Assembly (NCBI RefSeq): GCF_000003605.2
Contig: NW_003132874.1
Location: forward strand, 91,745-119,413
Direction: 5' to 3'
Length of the DNA stretch: 27,669 bases
DNA from: Saccoglossus kowalevskii
Taxonomy: Eukaryota > Hemichordata > Enteropneusta > Harrimaniidae
Numbering within the stretch: position 1 is the stretch's first letter; each line of letters opens with the position of its first letter. The notes below the pieces were generated by a model, which was not told the origin of the DNA, did not search any database, and worked only from the letters and a program-made list of their open reading frames with translations. Below, one piece after another: positions 3,627-23,933 of the stretch. The translations under genes were made by a program, and so were the position numbers.

Positions 3627-6600
3627 ATGAATCAAACAGAACCTGCTCCACCGTCATATGACCAGTACTATTCCCAGCAACAATATTATAATCAGGCATA
3701 TCCGGCACAGACCTATTCGACTCCAAGTACTTTTTCAACTGCGGTGGTAAGAAAATCAGTGATTTAATAATATATGTCGACAATATTATTATTTACACAT
3801 TCTGAATGACGTCAGTTTTCCGTGTTGTCAAGAACATGACGATTAATATCAAACACTCTGTAGAGAAGAATGTTACCAATATGTTTATCAAAAATATTAT
3901 TATACATTTGGGAATTATTTTTTCAGCATCTTAGAACATTGGTATTTTTGTCAGTATAAACATTAGATTCCAGAATTAATATGACGATAATCGATTTGCT
4001 ACTCGTGTGTGTGTGTGTTGTATTTAGTACGCACCGGAAGTAGAATTCGAAACAGAAATAATAAGATGGGAAAAATTGCAGCGCAGGCAGCAATAATATA
4101 GTCTATAGTCAATTGTTTTATCTTTCATTAAAAACAATTATTTGTTAGCACTATATTGTGTGACAGTTTCAAGCACTGAATGAGAATGTTAATTTCTACT
4201 CACGAAATGTGTTTACTAAAGTGTTAACTAACTGAACAATACCAAAACAGCATGATAAACTTATATATATAGCATCAATATTTTGGCGGAATATATTATA
4301 TGCAAATGTAATGTTATGCTGTTGCATTTAGTTGAGAACCAATACTACTGTTTTAGTCATTTCATTCAACTACTGCTTACAGGCGCCACAGCCAGTTGTG
4401 ATTCGATATGCCTTGATTGGCCTGGATATCATCGGTATGATTATGGCAGTTTGGAATACATTCTGTTGTTTTGTTCCACTTGGAATTCCAGCTATTATTG
4501 TGTCTGCATTTGTAAGTATACCATACTCAAATCATCTGAAAGGAATACTTGCTTTGCCGTAATGTTAAACTGGGTGATAAGACACCTGAGGAGTGGCTGT
4601 GGGTCTTGTCATTTTCGTCGTTAATAATTGTTAATATGTGCGCGATAACTGTAATATTTCAATCAGTAGCGATCAGTATAAATAACACTCCGATAAAAAC
4701 GTTGCCTTTTCCGATAATGAGAGTGATTAAGTAATTTTGATTAAGTAATTTTATCGAGTAAAAATATATTTATGAAAAAAAACAATCATCCCCAGATTTG
4801 TATTTATTGTATATAAAATATTGTATCCACTGATGACAGGAATATCACCATTTTGTTTCATAATTGTAATCAATATATTCGCCAATTTTCAGGAAATTGA
4901 AGCCATTCCAGTATTCGTATAGTGTAAAAGAGCACAGACAACTATGTAATTCTGACATAGGGTTGGTATATATGTACAAGTGCCCACAATTATGGTGAAT
5001 ACATGTTTAGCCAAATTTTACTTTGCAATCTGGTGGAGGTAGATGCTATGGTTGTTTGTAACACATTGCCTACTGGAAATCTTCATGAATGAGAAATCAA
5101 AGAAAGCTTAGAAAGAACTCCGGTGTACCCGATATTGGAGGCGTATTTAAAATTATTACAAAAATTGTGATTAGCTTTTCAAAAAAAAGCTTGGCGACTA
5201 ATATTGGTATATGTTATTTCAGTTACACACTGTAAAACACTATAATCCACGTTAATTTGATTGTACGTCCGTGGTTTACAGTCTGATTTTTTTTCAAGAG
5301 CACAAGTTCAATTTAAATCTGACTTAGATAATCAAATATGGATGGTTTTAAACATTAAAGTAATCACATCTGTGGATTGCTCTCAAGGCATCTATGTAGC
5401 ATGGCTCAAAGAAATGTGATGACTATTCATATTATGCAAATGTCAATCCAAAAACCAGACCTTTTCCCAAACTTTCATGCATTTTTCCAAGACATTTTGA
5501 CCCTTAATTCAGGCCAACATCATCGCCAAAGCTCATCAAAGTTCTGAGGATATGGTAGTTCCCTAGAGAAAACTGGTCTTTCTAAAATGAATTAATAACT
5601 ATGAAGAAATTTAAAGACTTTTCAAAGATTTTTTTATTTTTTTCTGTAATTTAAAGACAACTCAAAGACTTTCCTGACCTAAAAATATCCAAAGAATTTC
5701 AAAGGATTTTCCCAACGCTATGGACCTGTATCATACAAATTAGATAATTAATATATATGTATTTAGGCCCCAAATTAATTAGGTTGTTGCACTGTCTTAG
5801 AGAATTTATGTACTATGATTTATTAAAATAAATGATTAGTATTTGAGATGTTGACGGAAAAGCTGAAAACAGACTAATTGGCAACAGCCAAAATATAGAT
5901 TTTTGAATACTTTTGTGTCAAATGTGTCATTTCCTACCAGTCTAAAAACCAGGGGCAGAATGTCTGCCAACAATTAACTAGTGACAGTCCGTGACCTCTC
6001 AAACTATCTAGATAATATGCATCGTTGATCAATATGTAACTAGTCACGACAACTTCAGTGAAACCTCAAGTTGTAAAACCAATCCAAGATATGAGCCAGA
6101 ATTCATTCAATATATTCCGTGTTCTGTAGTTTATAAATATACCGCAAACTACGACTACGCAATGGATATAAGTCACGTTGAGAGTTTCAACAACACTCCA
6201 AACATTGTTCACGACAAGGGGCTTGGGTAATCAATGTAATGAAATAGACTCTGTCCGTGGATAATAATTATAGAAAACTAAACGCAAACATACCGGGAAA
6301 GGAAAACTTGCCCCAACCCCTGGTTTAATCTGAACTGTAATTTGGGCATATTCAAATTAAACATCCTGGCGCTGATTCAATCTGTTCCGTGATTTGGGGT
6401 ATATTCAATTATATTCGAACACCTGATTTGACCTGGGCATGATACGAGCATACTCAAACATGTCCAATCCCTGATTCAATCTGGGTTGTGAAGTGGGTGT
6501 ATTCAAACATACCCCACCCCGATGTAATCAATGTCGTGATTCAATCTGGGCTGTAATTAAATTTTGTGCAATCACAGCCAAGAGCATAATATAAGACATG

Positions 6601-6826
6601 TTGTTGTTTTTGTTTTTTATTTTAAAGTGCACTAATATAATTCATGTTGTCTTATTTTTTTATGTTTCAGGCATTCGAGTATCGACACAATGGCCAACAT
6701 GACAAAGCCACCAAGTTTTCCAAAATATCAATCGGTCTCTCCATTGTAGGTTTCATACTTGCTGTGGTCACCATAATTATAGTGGTTGTAGTTTTATTTG
6801 TTGTCAACACATCCAAAGAATTCTAA
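3627..6826 (+). CDS. CD225/dispanin (IFITM-related) membrane protein A, three exons
   Basis: Joined exons 3627-3746, 4383-4511 and 6671-6826 give 134 residues. All junctions are GT-AG and phase 0 (donors GTAAGA and GTAAGT; acceptors TGCTTACAG and TATGTTTCAG). Residues 1-40 are a Pro/Tyr/Gln-rich cytosolic head (PAPPSYDQYYSQQQYY) like many dispanins, with a PPSY motif that could bind WW-domain proteins. Residues 45-83 form the first hydrophobic segment, with a double cysteine (C68, C69; possible palmitoylation) and the PLG signature at 72-74. A short polar loop (HNGQHDKA, 89-96) leads into a second helix at about 104-128 and a short tail. This two-helix layout with a charged loop is the CD225 domain, whose members act in membrane fusion control and trafficking. 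The start follows 2 bp after an acceptor-like TTTCTTTCAG (ends 3624), so a 5' UTR intron is likely. I cannot assign a specific orthologue. Confidence 0.82.
6310..6560. repeat. degenerate ~60-bp tandem repeat in intron 2 of CD225 gene A
   Basis: Four to five diverged copies of a unit built on CCTGATTCAATCTGGGCTG ... TGGGTATATTCAAACAT follow one another just before exon 3. The copies differ by many substitutions, so the array is old. It has no coding frame. It ends about 110 bp before the acceptor of the last exon. Confidence 0.6.
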
Positions 6827-10404: not shown

Positions 10405-13400
10405 ATGGAAGATTCGCCGGAAGGTAACGTATAATTGTACAAATAGCGACGGTTGATGTCGTCAAGGTTATTTAATGATGCGTGACCTTTTACTGACCTA
10501 TTTATATATACTCTCACAATAAACACGTGTGCCATCATAATTACGCTACATTATATGTATTACGTCACGCCGCACGATAAGACTTCTCGGTGATTTAAAC
10601 TTACAAATGGCGGTGGAGTACTTATATATGAAACGGTGGTTGACGTCATTTATCCGGCATGTAGGGTATAGAGTGGCTGGGTCAGTGGAAACGTCATCAG
10701 AGATATTCAATACCATTAAATATATTCAGACTCAATTCACACCATTGAAATGAATAGACCGTATTTAATTGATCGGCATGATTATAATGTTCGACATCTC
10801 GGCAGAGCAATATTGTACAAAAAAAAAACATTTAATTTCGATCATCTGTAAGTAGTTAAACTCAGACGCACAATACAATATTAGTGAGGTATCATGTGGT
10901 TAATTGTATTCGTATCATCTTAAATTTAACAAATGAATGGAATATGTATTATTATATAGGGGCATTACGCGTCAACAGTACTGGTACCAGGTAGCTGAGC
11001 TTTGGGCTTCACGCGCGTGCGATGTACTCGGTGAATATTGTAATTCAAAACCCTTTCGCTGATCGCTTTTCTAGTATACATGTCCCAACCAACTACACTG
11101 TTACCTGGTACATCTTATTTGTTCATATGGTTATATAAACCGTATCTTTCAAAGCAAAATTCATAAAATCACATTGATTTCCATTTCAGAGCCTCGGCGG
11201 ACAAACCAAGATGACGAAGTAATGAATATAGATTTAAAAACACATGGCGATCCATTCACGATCTCTTTACCCGAGGACACCTTCAAGGTACAGCATTGTT
11301 TCGTGTTTCGTATGTTTCTTTTGCGACACTCTAACATCCAGTATCGTGTGTGTTCTAAAAATAAAAATGACGACACACAACGTAATAACATATTAATGTA
11401 GTCATTATGAAGAGCACAATGCGTGATACGTATATCATATAATAATAATATAATATAATATTAAAACTGTAAAATGAATCCAGTTATGAAATTTGTGATT
11501 ACAATAAAGCCAGAATATTGTTATGAAGAAAGCAACGATCCGTGATTAATAGCGGTCAACACATGATAATCGATAGACTTGCAAACAGTCTCTTGTTTGT
11601 TGTTCTTTTCAATAAATAACATGTTACGTGAGTGTATAAATATCGAATACCGGATATACCACGAAACAACCGGCTAACCGCCATTTACAATTTATGCACT
11701 CACGTAATATTATAATTCATTAAAAAAGAAAGAAAAAGACTGCGTGCAAGTCTATATTACCGGGGATAATCGATATTATATATCACATAGCACACCCTTC
11801 CCATCGAGTGTTCTAGGATTTATCAATGTAAAGCGGGAATACTCTCCTCCGTCCTTTTTTGACATATAACGAATAATGTTAACATCATTTCGTTGCATGG
11901 ACGAATTTAGCCAAGCAGTACAAGGCGTGCCGAATAGCGGCCACCGAGTATTTGATATAACGCACACGTGAAACCCTTTATTCTTTTGACCGTCTTGATG
12001 TTCGCATCCTATCGCATAGATACACCTGGCGATTTTTATTCTATCAGCAATTGGCCATTAAAACTCGGTATATTTTTGAAAAAAATGCAGCGACATTGTC
12101 ATTTAAACAAATATTTAAACAAATAACACACATTTCATAAAAGAAAGGCAATATTACCCTGAAAAAAAAATCCAGCACAAAATTGAAGAACAAATCATTT
12201 TACATTTACCACCTTGCCGCCAAAACTGTCTATTGGTGTAACCCTTATTTTCTTAATACGGTCACAAATTTATAGCGCATGGAGTCTACTTTTCGTTAGC
12301 GAAGCAAAAACTGACGGAGACAGCTGGGGTAGATATGCGTTCGAAAAAAAAGAAAACAAAATGAATTTCGAGACCTGAAGTATGCCATGCTTAGGATATG
12401 GAAGCGAAGCGTCCCAGGTTGCGTCTTGGTCCAACGCCGATAGCGCAGAAACCATGTTGAAAGAATTAGACTCAAAGGTGTATAGGGTGTATTCTGTAAT
12501 ATATGTAATATTGATTAATTTTTGCAACACGTACATGGCCTTGATTGGTCATTCATAGGCTCACCTTTAAGTTAGTGTACATCATTTATCGACTTCATGT
12601 TCGTATAACAAATATTATCTGATTATTTGCAATATTGTAATTAGGAGAGACATCTACAGAGGGAGTAAACTGGCGCGTTAGGAGAGACATCTACAGAGGG
12701 AGTAAACTGGCGCGTTAGGATAGACATCTACAGAGGGAGTAAACTGGCGCGTATTGATATATGTTTTGCTGAGGTTCAAAACGCTCAGTCGATTGAAGGA
12801 TGCGTTATTCAATATTTGATTTTAATTATTGTGGATCCTTACGTCATGACCGCGATTGCTCACGGATTTGTAAAATCCTACTGGGACGTTCAACCTATAC
12901 ATATGTATATACCGAAAATATTATTTTAAAATAATATTTTCGATATATACTTTTTAACTCATTAATAGAAATCTGAATAATATTTTGTACGTGAAGTTAT
13001 GTAACGTTCCATATAACTTGGTTTTAAAGTCAGTGTTTATGTTGTGTATATGCGTACAGTTAATGCTTAGTGTTGTATGTGTGTTACAAGTGTAATGTCT
13101 TCCTTTTGTATTTAGTGCATGTATAACATGTTGTATCGTGGATGCCGTGTTTGAGTTTCACTAATGCATCTATATCCTTATTGGTATTTTGTTTTCCACC
13201 TTTGTGTCTTTGTACTGCTTCTAATATTAAGTTGTGTACTTCTCACTAACCAAGTTGTTTTTCTTCTTCAGATCGATACAGGAGAAAGTGATTTCAAAGT
13301 GAGTTAAGTATTTGTTTGCTTTAAATCAACATTGTAACGATGTTTTGTGTTGATATTATTTAATTCACTAAATGAGGGGACAATATATACTCAAACAGTT

Positions 13401-16400
13401 TTGTAGTTTTGAACAACCTTGATTACACTCATTGCGTCATTTTCAAGAGAGAGTAGAACTTTGTCTCAAGGGGACGCAAATATAATAGGAGAGGTCGATT
13501 AATCACACATTTGTATGTATCGCAGCTTCAGTTACGAAACCTATTAGCCCGTATATTTTTTCTCGAATTTCTTTAAATCTAGGATTTTGATTCTCGCCGT
13601 GAACGTCGCAGCCACCATGATTCCAACCCTCATAACAAGCGGCGTGATGAGAATCCCCATGGCAACCGCCACGAAGGTGATATCGAAAGTGACTCTCATT
13701 CAAACGGTGTTTATATCCAGAAACCGCGCACGTACCTTGTACACTCAGTGGTAGGCTGCATACTATGCGTCGTTCCACTGGGATTGATAAGTCTATATAT
13801 GTCATATCAGGTAAACAACAATACCGTTTTAACATGACTCATAAGTATATATATATATATATATGACAAAAGTAACAACATATAAACAAGAATACAGTCC
13901 ACTATGATTGTTGTCTATATATGACATATGAGGTAAGTAACAACATAGAAACAACAATACAGTCCACTAGGATTGGTAAGTCTATATATGACATATGAGG
14001 TAAGTGACAATATAGAACCGACAATACAGTCCACTACGATTGGTAAGTCTATATATGACATATGAGGTAAGTAACAACATAGAAACAATAATACAGTCCA
14101 CTAGGATTGGTAAGTCTATATATGACATGAGGTAAGTAACAAAATAGAAACAAGAATACAGTCCACTAGGATTGGTAAGTCTATATATGACATATGAGGT
14201 AAGTAACAATATAGAAACAACAATACAGTCCACTAGGATTGGTAAGTCTATATATGACATGAGGAAAGTAACACCATAGAAACAACAATACAGTCCACTA
14301 GGATTGGTAAGTCTATATATGACATGAGGTAAGTAACAACATAGAAACAACAATACAGTCCACTAGGATTGGTAAGTCTATATATGACATGAGGTAAGTA
14401 ACAACATAGAAACAACAATACAGTCCACTACGATTGGTAAGTCTATATATGACATATGAGGTAAGTAACAACATAGAAACAACAATACAGTCCACTAGGA
14501 TTGGTAAGTCTATATATGACATGAGGAAAGTAACAATATAGAAACAACAATACAGTCCACTACGATTGGTAAGTCTGTATATGACATGAGGAAAGTAACA
14601 ACATAGAAACAACAATAAAGTCCACTATGGTTGGTAAGTCTATATATGACATATGAGATAAGTAACAACATAGAAACAACAATACAGTCCACTAGGATTG
14701 GTAAGTCTATATATGACATGAGGTAAGAACAACATAGAAACAACAATACAGTCCACTATGATTGGTAAGTCTATATATGACATGAGGTAAGTAACAACAT
14801 AGAAACAACAATACAGTCCACTAGGATTGGTAAGTCTGTATATGACATGAGGAAAGTAACAATATAGAACCGACAATACAGTCCACTACGATTGGTAAGT
14901 CTATATATGACATATGAGATAAGTAACAACATAGAAACAACAATACAGTCCACTATGATTGGTAAGTCTATATATGACATGAGGAAAGTAACAATATAGA
15001 AACAACAATACAGTCCACTACGATTGGTAAGTCTATATATGACATGAGGTAAGAACAACATAGAAACAACAATACAGTCCACTATGATTGGTAAGTCTAT
15101 ATATGACATGAGGTAAGTAACAACATAGAAACAACAATACAGTCCACTATGGTTGGTAAGTCTATATATGACATATGGGGTAAGTAACAGCATAGAAACA
15201 ACAATACAGTCCACTACGATTGGTAAGTCTATATATGACATGAGGTAAGTAACAACATAGAAACAACAATACAGTCCACTATGGTTGGTAAGTCTATATA
15301 TGACATATGGGGTAAGTAACAACATAGAAACAACAATACAGTCCACTAGGATTGGTAAGTCTATATATGACAAATGAGGTAAATAACAACATAGAAACAA
15401 CAATACAGTCCACTAGGATTGGTAAGTCTATATATGGCATATGAGGCAAGTAACAATATAGAAACAAAAATACATTCCACTGGGATTTGTAAGCCTATAT
15501 ATGACATATGAGGTAAGCAACAGCATAGCAACAACAATACAGTCCACTAGGATTTGTAAGTCTATATATGACATATGAGGTAAGTAACAACATAGAAACA
15601 ACAATACAGTCCACTAGGATTGGTAAGTCTATATATGACATGAGGTAAGAACAACATAGAAACAACAATACAGTCCACTATGATTGGTAAGTCTATATAT
15701 GGCATATGAGGTAAGTAACAACATAGAAACAATAATACAGTCCACTAGGATTGGTAAGTCTATATATGACATATGGGGTAAGTAACATCATAGAAACAAC
15801 AATACAGTCCACTAGGATTGGTAAGTCTATTTATGGCATATGAGGTAAGTAACAACAGAGAAACAATAATACAGTCCACTAGGGTTGGTAAGTCTGTATA
15901 TGACATGAAGAAAGTAACAATATAGAACCGACAATACAGTCCACTACGATTGGTAAGTCTATATATGACATATGAGATAAGTAACAACATAGAAACAACA
16001 ATACAGTCCACTATTATTGGTAAGTCTATATATGACATGAGGAAAGTAACAATATAGAAACAACAATACAGTCCACTACGATTGGTAAGTCTATATATGA
16101 CATGAGGTAAGTAACAACATAGAAACAACAATACAGTCCACTATGGTTGGTAAGTCTATATATGACATATGGGGTAAGTAACAGCATAGAAACAACAATA
16201 CAGTCCACTATGATTGGTAAGTCTATATATGACATGAGGTAAGTAACAACATAGAAACAACAATACAGTCCACTAGGATTGGTAAGTCTATATATGACAT
16301 ATGGGGTAAGTAACAACATAGAAACAACAATACAGCCCATTATGATTGGTAAGTCTATATATGGCATATGAGGCAAGTAACAATATAGAAACAAAAATAC

Positions 16401-17810
16401 ATTCCACTGGGATTTGTAAGCCTATATATGACATATGAGGTAAGCAACAGCATAGCAACAACAATACAGTCCACTAGGATTTGTAAGTCTATATATGACA
16501 TATGAGGTAAGTAACAACATAGAAACAACAATACAGTCCACTAGGATTGGTAAGTCTATATATGACATGAGGTAAGAACAACATAGAAACAACAATACAG
16601 TCCACTATGATTGGTAAGTCTATATATGGCATATGAGGTAAGTAACAACATAGAAACAACAATACAGTCCACTAGGATTGGTAAGTCTATTTATGGCATA
16701 TGAGGTAAGTAACAACATAGAAACAATAATACAGTCCACTAGGATTGGTAAGTCTATATATGACATATGGGGTAAGTAACATCATAGAAACAACAATACA
16801 GTCCACTAGGATTGGTAAGTCTATTTATGGCATATGAGGTAAGTAACAACATAGAAACAATAATACAGTCCACTTGGATTGGTAAGTCTATATATGACAT
16901 ATGGGCTAAGTAACATCATAAAAACAACAATACAGTCCAGTGGGATTGGAAAGTCTATATATGACATGTGAGGTAAGTAACAACATAGAAACAACAATAC
17001 AGTTAACTATGATTGGTAAGTCTATATATGACATATGGGGTAAGTAACAACATAGAATCAACAATACAGCCCATTATGATTGGTAAGTCTATATATGGCA
17101 TATGAGGTAAGTACCAACATAGAAACAACAATACAGTCCAGTAGGATTGGTAAGTCTATATATGACATATGAGGTAAATAACAATATAGAAACAGCACTA
17201 CAGTCCACTGCGATTGGTAAGTCTATATATGGCATATGTAGTAAGTAACAACATAGAAACAATAATACAGTCCACTAGGATTGGTAAGTCTATATATGAC
17301 ATATGAGGTAAGTAACAACATAGAAACAGCAATACAGTCCACTACGATTGGTAAGTCTATATATGACATATGAAGTAAGTATCAACATAGAAACATGCAT
17401 CAGTTCAGAGTATGTTATGCCAATCACTTGAGAATAATAGTAAAGTATAGCCATGTTGGGGTAAGTCAACTTAACCTCAATGGGTATCTATACTACTGTT
17501 TGTTTTAATATTCTCGATGCAACTTCACACGTTAAAATGTTTTTCCCCAAGTTCACGAGTGGTAGTAGAGAAGGAAGATATAAATGAATCATCATTTTTT
17601 TTATCTCTAAACATGTAGGTGTATAGTGCTGTGAAGAAACGGGATTTCCGAAAAGCAAAATCATCGTCCAAATGTGCATGTCAGTTGTCAGCGGCTAGCA
17701 TCATCTGTGGTATCATCATATTGGTGTTAGTCATAGGAATAGTTATCTACTCCAGGTCGGATACGAGCTCTGCAACCCAGTCGCCATTCAACACTACGGA
17801 CCCAATATGA
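10405..17810 (+). CDS. CD225/dispanin (IFITM-related) membrane protein B, five coding exons
   Basis: Joined exons 10405-10423, 11190-11287, 13272-13298, 13583-13810 and 17619-17810 give 187 residues. The short first exon (MEDSPE plus one base) ends in phase 1 and exactly completes the frame of exon 2; the other junctions are phase 0. Residues 1-48 are acidic. Residues 52-78 are rich in His, Arg and Asn. The first hydrophobic segment is about 99-121 with C107, C110 and the PLG signature (113-115). The polar loop is YSAVKKRDFRKAKSS (126-140). The second helix is about 145-168, followed by a Ser/Thr-rich tail. This is the two-helix CD225 layout of gene A, and the intron inside the domain falls at the same place and phase in both, which supports tandem duplication followed by divergence. 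Exon 3 is a 27-nt in-frame microexon. The last intron (3.8 kb) is filled by a minisatellite seeded from the end of exon 4. The exon 1 choice is inferred; translation from the ATG at 11222 is the alternative. Confidence 0.75.
12641..12751. repeat. three tandem copies of a 37-bp unit
   Basis: Units start at 12641, 12678 and 12715. Each reads TTAGGAGAGACATCTACAGA then GGGAGTAAACTGGCGCG. The copies are identical except for GAGAGA to GATAGA in the third. The near-identity indicates recent duplication. It lies in intron 2 of CD225 gene B. Confidence 0.95.
12905..12950. repeat. 46-nt near-perfect palindrome
   Basis: A perfect 30-nt palindrome (12913-12942, arms CGAAAATATTATTTT and its complement, no loop) is extended on both sides by GTATATA/TATATAC with one mismatched pair. 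It lies in intron 2 of CD225 gene B, about 320 nt before the microexon. It is AT-rich and could extrude as a cruciform in DNA or form a hairpin in the pre-mRNA. Confidence 0.9.
13841..17393 (+). repeat. minisatellite of ~52 units (64-67 bp) derived from an exon/5' splice site
   Basis: Unit starts (GTAAGTCTATAT) can be followed from 13976 to 17351 at steps of 64-67 bp, about 52 units, with two decayed units before them. The unit contains CCACTAGGATTG, GTAAGTCTATATATGACATA, TGAGGTAAGTAACAACATAG and AAACAACAATACAGT. Length variants come mainly from an AT loss (GACATATGAGG to GACATGAGG) and a GT loss. The first 36 bp match the last 36 bp of CD225-B exon 4 (13775-13810) at 32 of 36 positions, and the next bases match the start of its intron. 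Most units carry two GTAAGT sequences. A five-unit block at 15422-15753 recurs almost unchanged at 16349-16680. The long open frames on the minus strand here only reflect a repeat that is poor in stop codons in that direction. Confidence 0.95.
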
Positions 17811-22100: not shown

Positions 22101-23933
22101 AATCGTTTACTTATGGTACAGATCCACTGGTATAGTGTAGTTGTAATATATATCGTAATATATAGTGTAATGTTGATGATCATTTTGTCACATGGGTCTT
22201 CCCCCAAGATATATAGTTCACATAATTTTCTCATATTGTTTTCTTTCTCTGTAGAGGACTACGATGAAGTGACAAGAGATATAGCTGATCTGATGGGTCA
22301 AGTAGTTCTTATTTCAATCGAGTAAGTTTACCAATTAGTATTGTAATCAAGTCTACCCATTTGATGTGTAATGCGAATTGGGAACGTTTAATAACCGAAA
22401 TTTATTTTCCGTTCAAATATCCAACATGTTTTTGTTAATAAGTACATTTGTCGTTAATTACGGTATATGTATTCTATGAAAAAAAACGCGCCAGTCAAGG
22501 CAAATTCCCAGTTATTCTGATGAACAATCATAGAGCATTGTGGGATAGTTTACAATTCATGTACTTGCAGAAAGGTTTACGATTTGTGAAAAACTGTCCC
22601 ACAAATATTTATGTCGAATGATTCCTAACAAAATCGTTAATGGGCCGTGGTCGCCGCGCCGCGCATGTGCGACATTTGTGTTGATAAACATTGATATTCC
22701 CATAATTCAATGTGCTTTTGGGTGCGACATGCACTAAATATCGCCAGTGACTCCTTAGAAACCATCCAATCACAAACAAAATTACGTAGTGAATTCTTGG
22801 TAATGTCTAACTTTGTATCCGTCGGTTCTCACAACAGTCAAAGTCGCCATCTTTATTCATATGAGTCCAATATCTCGCGCATGCATAGCGCGACGACCAT
22901 GTTGTATTAGTATATATTGTGTGTCAAATATTTCGCGCTCGTTTTTAATGACACCGAGGCGTTCTCTACATAATATTACCTAATTACATTAAAAAATGTT
23001 GACACAAATAAAAATGTACAAACAAGACACGGCAAAAAATGCACTGGTCAAATTCTTCTAGCCTCCCCTACAGTTTCAAATGTTTGACCCCTACCATGCT
23101 CATTTGTCAAATATCATTGCAGTTACAACCTCGCTCCAGAACACATCTTTCCAGGTCCTGTGAACGATTGCTACAAGGCAACAAAATGGCTGCTCCAACA
23201 TGCAGCCGATTATGGAATTGACGAAAACAGAATTGGCATTTCCGGTGACAGCGCCGGTGGGAACTTGGCTGCATCGGTTGTTTTGCGATTAAAGGTCGAT
23301 AAAGTCACCCCGAAACTGGCATTCCAGGTACTGGTTTACCCAGCATTACAGTCCATCGATTTCACCCTGCCTTCGTATCAACAAAACAAATACGCTTTTG
23401 ATGGACTGATCACAACTTCGTATATGCCGTATTATTGGTTGATATACGCAATAGGTGAAGCTCCCAGAAACTTGACGGACGCCATGTTGAAAAAACAGGC
23501 CGTGTCAGAGTTGAGACGATTAAAGAACGGCCGCCTTGCGAATTATATCAACCACTCCCTGCTTCCAGAAACATATAAGAGTAGAGGGTATGACCCAAAC
23601 ATGCACACAAACATCAAGAAATCTGTTAAAGAAATTCCAAATAATATTTTACGGATTTTCGTTGATCCGTACTTCGCGCCACTTTTAGCAGAAGATCTCA
23701 GCGGACTTCCCGAGACCTATATAATAACTGCTGAATTTGATGTACTTCGGGATGACGGGATACTTTATTATGAGAGACTGAAGGAAGCTGGCGTCCAAGT
23801 GACACTCAACAATGTCGTAAGCGGTTTCCATGGGATGCTGAACATGGCCCAGGAAATCGGCGGATTTGAAGTTGGCATACAGCTTAAAAAAGATATTGCA
23901 AATTTTGCCAGGTTGAGATTTTATCCCGAGTAG
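19182..23933 (+). CDS. AADAC-like: arylacetamide deacetylase / neutral cholesterol ester hydrolase-like serine hydrolase, four exons
   Basis: Joined exons 19182-19322, 21660-21897, 22255-22321 and 23123-23933 give 418 residues, close to the roughly 400 of vertebrate AADAC. Junction phases (0, 1, 2) match exactly and all introns are GT-AG. An N-terminal hydrophobic signal anchor (about 5-22) is followed by the family segment RPVGIAEPAKLTAVNAL. The oxyanion-hole motif HGGGW is at 117-121 and IDYNLAPEH follows across the exon 3/4 junction. The nucleophile elbow GDSAGGN is at 190-196 (Ser192). EFDVLRDDG supplies the acid (Asp355) and GFHGM the histidine (His385); the Asp-His spacing of 30 is that of the family. 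The triad is complete, so the enzyme should be active. Family members are ER membrane proteins with a luminal catalytic domain that hydrolyse acyl esters and amides of lipids and xenobiotics. The exact substrate cannot be told. A tandem paralogue begins at 25635. Confidence 0.93.
19580..19790. repeat. nested inverted repeat (fold-back element) in AADAC-like intron 1
   Basis: A perfect 18-bp inverted pair (TATTCACTGGGTTTTAAT at 19694-19711 and its complement at 19747-19764) lies inside a weaker outer pair (TACTGTAAA near 19582 and TTTACAGTA near 19775). A further partial copy of the GTGGGTTTTAAA arm occurs near 19634. It has no coding content and is probably a small fold-back transposon. Confidence 0.65.
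20166..20330. mobile_element. TTAA-ended MITE, 165 bp, copy 2 (inverted)
   Basis: Its reverse complement aligns end to end with the element at 9051-9215, including the interior blocks AAAGGCTCATGGGTA and AACAATGACACGCTATGG, with identical total length. The ends are TTAAAGCGGG...CCCGCTTTAA. It sits within intron 1 of the AADAC-like gene. Copies in two unrelated locations with the same boundaries define the element's ends well. Confidence 0.88.
20540..20980 (+). other. GC-richer block with a 113-codon open frame, probably not a gene
   Basis: This stretch inside AADAC-like intron 1 is richer in GC than its surroundings and is open from 20633 to 20974 on the + strand. The predicted peptide ends in a hydrophobic run (FMLFTMLIYLLLSIVILI), but the rest matches no family I know and there are no flanking splice signals that demand it. 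It repeats the string GACGCATGC twice (about 20767 and 20791), also found in the 165-bp MITEs, so a decayed mobile element is the likelier source. Confidence 0.3.
22638..22905. mobile_element. MITE-like element in AADAC-like intron 3
   Basis: This is a diverged copy, in the same orientation, of the element at 7538-7839. It has the inverted ends CGTGGTCGCCGCGCCGCGCA and GCGCGACGACCA, and shared interior strings such as GCGACATTTGTGTTGATAAA and ACAGTCAAAGTCGCCATCTT. It makes up about a third of the 801-nt intron. It lacks clear terminal TTAA/TTTAA on the right, so the end is eroded or the boundary is shifted. Confidence 0.7.

Follow-up and report, generated by a model that had tools for sequence, protein, structure and literature searches.

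Proteins of the CD225 family possess two membrane segments. A splice-donor minisatellite of the IFI6 type is defined by a repeated exon-intron junction with a donor in each unit. In human IFI6, which is not a CD225 protein, the minisatellite is located at an exon end and made up of 12-bp repeats; it reportedly supplies this gene, also named G1P3 or 6-16, with multiple splice donors, as Turri, Cuin and Porter are said to have described in 1995 (NAR 23:1854). According to an excerpt of PMC4526556, two downstream repeat units of IFI6 serve as donors. The subject of the present analysis is CD225-B, a CD225 gene of the hemichordate Saccoglossus kowalevskii whose fourth intron is filled by a 67-bp minisatellite, in a window of 27,669 nucleotides, the whole stretch of DNA analyzed (contig NW_003132874.1, positions 91,745 to 119,413, forward strand). 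The array is real and is most likely best read as a neutral minisatellite derived from the junction between exon 4 and intron 4. As in IFI6, whose transcript is interferon-induced, a minisatellite offers multiple candidate donors. In contrast, the CD225-B unit comprises 67 bp with two putative donors, and the array is intronic save for its exon edge. Human IFI6 appears to be the nearest precedent, and it was the only other junction-derived donor minisatellite to emerge in a narrow full-text search of open-licence papers, further printed cases being possible. Ordinary intronic minisatellites are likewise tandem arrays with units of tens of bp, some of them dense in GTAAGT. Another parallel, presented in an excerpt of PMC4974935, is the gain of introns when exon DNA bearing AGGT is duplicated in tandem; in both cases, gene DNA with a splice-site-like sequence is copied. 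However, such an event makes an intron, whereas the CD225-B event would have enlarged an existing one.

The model of CD225-B comprises five exons that encode 187 residues in an uninterrupted frame. In profile analysis, the CD225 domain (PF04505) is matched over its full length, residues 95-162 covering profile positions 1-68 of 68 (E 3.2e-15; 56.4 bits against a curated cut-off of 27.1), which places the protein in this family. As in IFITM/CD225 (dispanin) genes, the domain is split by an intron at one position. Its first half is encoded by exon 4 (13583..13810, 228 nt, on the forward strand, as are the CD225-B exons and the array features located below), which ends with CAG/GTAAAC; its second half and the C-terminus are encoded by exon 5 (17619..17810), which follows the acceptor CATGTAG/GTG and runs to the stop codon. 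Both exons are based on the CD225 profile and on paralogs, the acceptor scores also bearing on exon 5, while the authentic 5' splice site GTAAAC (13811..13816) is assigned from donor scoring and paralog junctions. Within intron 4, Tandem Repeats Finder reports an array at 13852..17395 (period 67, 53.6 copies, 90% matches), hence a minisatellite, with many head-to-tail units within the range of about 10-100 bp; together with unit tiling and a donor scan, this gives about 53 copies and two donor-like sites per unit. The units were defined by wrap-around tiling with a cyclic consensus, and their register runs upstream into the coding exon. Unit 0 (13774..13835; tiling and BLAST) combines the 37 terminal nt of exon 4 with the 25 nt of intron that adjoin them, whereas unit 1 (13836..13894; tiling and donor scan) is strongly diverged and holds no decoy donor reaching the authentic score. 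Units 2-54 are regular (67 bp in 32, 65 bp in 16, 64 bp in 4 and 66 bp in 1), with a mean of 6.1 differences over 67 columns and 14 identical pairs; counts given for 53 units exclude the tiling units 0, 1 and 55. A perfect 316-nt repeat inside the array at a lag of 927 demonstrates a recent block duplication and, for the one assembly at hand, suggests that the array has changed recently.

The last 37 nt of exon 4 align with the unit without gaps at 33 positions (score 54), and the register is continuous; this agrees with the initial annotation of the window, in which the unit was described as a copy of the last 36 nt of the exon (32 of 36 identical) plus the start of the intron. The comparison with shuffled sequence that it proposed favours the match, as 2,000 dinucleotide-shuffled versions of exon 4 score no higher than 25; among 820 other 228-nt stretches of the window, the top score is 28. 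When exon 4 and 25 nt of intron (253 nt) are compared by BLAST with the 572-Mb assembly, 37 matches are returned, namely the query itself and 36 places inside the array (best non-self E 5.9e-9). The splice junction (query 228/229) is crossed by 34 of these 36, which end at query position 232 at least. Conversely, a 151-nt piece of the array matches 24 array places and a single exon end (13774-13823, E 8.0e-8). These counts are lower bounds, and the search passes over very common words; among the matches listed for both queries no array-like DNA is found elsewhere in the assembly. A chance origin of the match was considered and is ruled out by the shuffles, the window stretches and the genome search. 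The first 40 nt of intron 4, by themselves, score 25 against the unit, a value that 5 of 2,000 shuffles equal or exceed, the highest at 32; taken alone, the intronic homology is much weaker than the exonic one. In viral contigs, a 36-nt pattern of the unit has no exact match.

The CD225 family of the assembly (34 profile matches, 30 of them assigned to loci, 18 of these reading as first halves) indicates which came first. A common junction codon, in phase 0, closes 17 of the 18 half-exons, exon 4 and 16 others; it lies twelve residues away from where the P-x-G motif begins, a motif that reads I-I-G in one of them and P-I-S in a second. The remaining locus, L043, returned no junction and was dropped. 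A GT occupies this junction in 16 of the 17 and an AT in one (L027), which was left out of the donor ranking for want of a GT. The ranking comprises 16 donors, genes A and B included, and the donor of L020 is assigned by position, a higher-scoring GT lying 23 nt beyond the end of its match. PRRT1 (9zks_M, E 6.5e-4) aligns gap-free through the exon segment. The junction codon shared with 16 other half-exons and this gap-free alignment mark exon 4 and its junction as old and homologous; the array, therefore, most likely derives from exon 4 and its donor. The proposal of the initial annotation that a coding exon end and its donor were amplified inside the gene's own intron is supported by the genome-wide match, the shared paralog junction and PRRT1. 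Exon 4 encodes Ser at position 10, as do 13 of 16 paralogs (Ala in the other 3), whereas the unit would encode Thr, which is absent from all. A polarity drawn from positions 5 and 12 (I/V and Q/E) was dropped, the paralogs being indecisive. The commonest donor of the family, GTAAGT (8 of 16), is that of the unit, and GTAAAC of exon 4 is one of two lacking the +5 G; therefore, the authentic donor was perhaps weakened after copying, or else GTAAGT may have arisen in the founder by way of its indel. In one CD225 half-exon (L061, G000:C3500:54600-60500), which is very like one on C994, AT replaces the donor GT (GAA/ATAAGT), and downstream of it lies an unrelated 44/89-bp array with no match to its exon end.

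Donor scoring reveals how rich in decoys the array is. At or above the authentic donor score are 86 of 250 GTs in the array against 9 of 1,511 outside, two of which are the authentic donors of these genes; this corresponds to 24 and 0.37 strong donors per kb, respectively, and 83 of the 250 array GTs pair with U1 at least as well as the authentic site. GTAAGT occurs 81 times in the array, fewer than the 90-100 motifs first estimated. Of 53 units, 32 have it at D1, which is the donor copied from the exon, and 49 at D2, the second donor created by the change from ATAAGT to GTAAGT; the claim that every unit has a second donor is thus true of 49. Similarly, the authentic donor was said to be weaker than its copies, which is true for most of them, yet among the 16 CD225 donors it ranks 9th by matrix and 6th by U1 energy and is average for the family. 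The first decoy reaching the authentic score, GAG/GTAAGT (13933..13938, donor scan), lies 122 nt downstream of the authentic site and would extend exon 4 to 350 nt, later decoys more. Reading on past exon 4 soon meets a stop, as anticipated: the gene model and donor scan place the first in-frame one, a TGA, at 13835..13837, 25 nt into the intron. Because it precedes every decoy, a single truncated ending, MSYQVNNNTVLT, would result, and the copies therefore cannot be a source of several C-termini. The distance from this stop to the first decoy junction is 95 nt, and nonsense-mediated decay follows a 50-55-nt rule in vertebrates, by which decay of a decoy-spliced mRNA would be expected. None of the 287 AGs of the array attains the score of the weakest real acceptor, as compared with 179 of 1,089 outside. 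Intron gain by AGGT duplication needs a usable acceptor within the copy, and the unit, with none at that score, resembles neither such a gain nor an exonised repeat; with its repeated exon-intron junction and a donor-like site per unit, the array has the structure of a splice-donor minisatellite.

The probable history of the array is a junction-spanning duplication followed by neutral expansion, with authentic splicing kept and the array tolerated as a passenger. Identity, register, the paralog junction, donor and acceptor scores and the lack of any other listed match were computed; direction, expansion steps, normal splicing, neutrality and polymorphism we infer. A segment of about 54 bp over the exon 4/intron 4 junction would have been duplicated in tandem, perhaps joined at CGTT tetramers. 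This putative 54-bp founder segment (13771..13824) lies between such tetramers at 13771 and 13825, and 54 and 13 add up to 67; in the alignment, the intron part has a gap of 14 nt, and one base at the end is unmatched. The CGTT pair near the segment ends is one 4-nt repeat, against a background rate per position of 0.6% over the first 13.7 kb, and the units now read CAGT at this site; CGTT microhomology as the duplication joint is suggestive only. One founder copy would then have come to differ from the exon by a ~13-bp indel and a small number of substitutions, including the change from ATAAGT to GTAAGT. The derived bases at D2 and column 38 occur in 54 of 54 units (1-54, the placement of unit 1 being doubtful), and a single founder therefore suffices for the doubled donors. 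Slippage and unequal exchange would have led to about 53 intronic units, including the block duplication 927 bp apart. On average, units 2-10 differ from the exon by 4.4 positions and units 11-54 by 5.3. The end of exon 4 would remain as the constrained edge unit of the array, and the authentic donor (13810/13811) would still be joined to the acceptor (17618/17619). This donor is favoured because it is the first one after the exon 4 acceptor, the array donors having no acceptor of their own, and because these would need an exon 4 of at least 350 nt. The array would thus be a passenger that is tolerated and probably polymorphic, and its donors may be bound by U1 but not productively spliced.

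Selection on the copied donors finds no clear support. As conserved as D2 or more are 8 of 67 six-column windows, and as D1 or more 50 of 67 (36% and 88%, respectively, when variant types are counted instead). At D1, 13 of 53 units have a dead GT, and 6 of these share the form GAGGAAAGT, which was therefore multiplied along with the rest of the array. Both the column conservation and the spread of dead D1 sites fit neutral expansion from one founder. The RNA duplex between array and exon was also considered and dropped as suggestive at most: it reaches -21.0 kcal/mol, whereas 500 mononucleotide-shuffled units average -13.8 (sd 3.2) and attain -24.3 kcal/mol at best. As side observations, the exon end (13790-13810) contains ATATGTCATAT, the complement of ATATGACATAT in the unit consensus, ATATGACATA occurs exactly at 23 places of the array, and exon-unit pairing is stronger than unit-unit pairing (-21.0 and -16.4 kcal/mol, respectively).

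Several points weigh against a neutral passenger with normal splicing. The direction of array origin rests on paralogs, normal splicing is assumed, and the donor and acceptor scores come from matrices of human sites. The copied donors are the stronger ones, both by score (7.72 for D1 and 5.06 for D2, against 3.89 for the authentic site) and by U1 pairing (-12.3, -9.1 and -8.3 kcal/mol, respectively). The CD225-B donor is devoid of the +5 G present in 14 of 16 live donors, a lack that could mean relaxed use of the authentic site. Eleven other CD225 introns hold 3 decoys at or above the authentic score in 12,603 nt, and the five introns of the two genes of the window hold none, which makes the tolerance of 86 odd; counted against each gene's own donor, the eleven introns hold 10 such sites, and a donor-rich array was found in 0 of the 11 measured. 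Fifteen regions had been fetched, 11 of which entered this count with approximate lengths, while L058-L061, without a located second half, served for the repeat scan only. In addition, the D2 columns are within the most conserved eighth of windows, and the decoy-free first 122 nt past the authentic donor hint at selection, although decay of the edge units of the array explains this gap equally well.

If the array were used as in IFI6, its donors would be spliced to exon 5 in some transcripts and its length would tune output, the product being either a one-helix protein ending in MSYQVNNNTVLT or an mRNA lost to nonsense-mediated decay. The 86 of 250 array GTs that match or exceed the authentic donor, the missing +5 G of the latter, and the employment of downstream repeat units as donors by human IFI6, also interferon-induced (PMC4526556, in excerpt), are in line with such use. 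However, the nearest decoy, 122 nt off, already entails a 350-nt exon and later ones longer exons, exon 5 is intact with the CD225 profile covered end to end, and the D1 columns exhibit no special conservation, with 13 of 53 dead; IFI6-like use is unlikely. Equally built on the loss of the +5 G, a length-variable splicing rheostat, in which better array donors took over a share of splicing, is quite doubtful; if it existed, array length would set, in each individual, the proportions of two-helix protein, one-helix protein and decayed mRNA. It is improbable that the orphan donors act by drawing the U1 small nuclear ribonucleoprotein (snRNP), thereby curbing premature polyadenylation or slowing splicing in a telescripting-like manner. 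Telescripting is an established idea (PMC5499120, in excerpt) and the density of strong donors, 24 per kb in the array and 0.37 elsewhere, would serve it, but a single AATAAA/ATTAAA occurs in intron 4, inside the array, whereas about nine are predicted from the window rate of 2.4 per kb, and there may therefore be little to shield; the dead D1 sites in 13 of 53 units also speak against it. The roles advanced in the initial annotation, as U1 sink, decoys or protection against polyadenylation, are thus unsupported, the D1 columns being ordinary and dead D1 variants having multiplied, and functional readings of the array in general are without support here.

The array could also reflect the decay of a gene that has become dispensable, and the +5 A of its donor, together with the CD225 gene on C3500 that has no GT at the same junction, points that way. 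Yet the five exons, the unbroken 187-residue frame and the CD225 match (3.2e-15) render decay of CD225-B highly improbable. Least credible of all is the reverse direction, in which a unit of a pre-existing satellite gave exon 4 its 3' end and donor: exon and units are indeed in register, and GTAAGT of the unit is nearer the family norm than GTAAAC, but 17 CD225 half-exons share the codon of the junction, the CD225 domain matches end to end, and array-like DNA elsewhere in the assembly is absent among the matches listed. Under the preferred reading, a neutral junction-derived minisatellite, intron 4 contains 86 donors at least as strong as the real one, copies of the same junction that differ mainly by position and a few bases. 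The weight of position and exon context against donor strength in 5' splice-site choice is directly testable in this intron, which is the value of the array as a natural experiment in a gene related to the antiviral IFITM family. Moreover, the array documents how a junction under selection can give rise to a minisatellite and, apparently, keep its function as the unit at the edge.

Other arrays of the assembly offer a comparison. At the same position in another CD225 intron (L054, G000:C994:619150-621500) lies an unrelated 27/54-bp minisatellite of ~1.25 kb without GTAAGT; unlike the CD225-B array, this array and that on C3500 have no match to their own exon ends. Donor-motif arrays occur on C998 at ~891.5-892.5 kb (L072; 26-bp unit, 34 copies, of the CAGGTGAGTA/CAGGTAAGTA type) and on C1089:1-9990 (L074; 32-bp unit, 317 copies), and a short GTAAGT array on C850. 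In the sequence covered, no exon is evident beside the C998 and C1089 arrays; on C1089, the array takes up almost the whole of the 9,990 bases examined. Genome-wide, the pattern of three AGGTAAGT at a 58-83-bp period is found 588 times forward and 449 times reverse, against 1,353 and 449 in the backward control, hence with no enrichment over this control.

Upstream of exon 4, CD225-B is modelled from splice signals and the frame: exon 1 (10405..10423) starts at the ATG and ends with the donor AAG/GTAACG, exon 2 covers 11190..11287, and exon 3 (13272..13298) comprises 27 nt, the frame being open even without it. A 37-bp unit is repeated three times in intron 2 (window positions 12641-12752, 98% matches). 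The window also includes a second CD225 gene (3627-6826) and a perfect TAATT repeat of 24.6 copies (1854-1976). Lastly, a profile search identifies an esterase exon at 23160-23933 (Abhydrolase_3, 4.4e-39), which we take to be arylacetamide-deacetylase-like, and first-exon sequences alike by eye near ~19184 and ~25636 suggest esterase genes in tandem.

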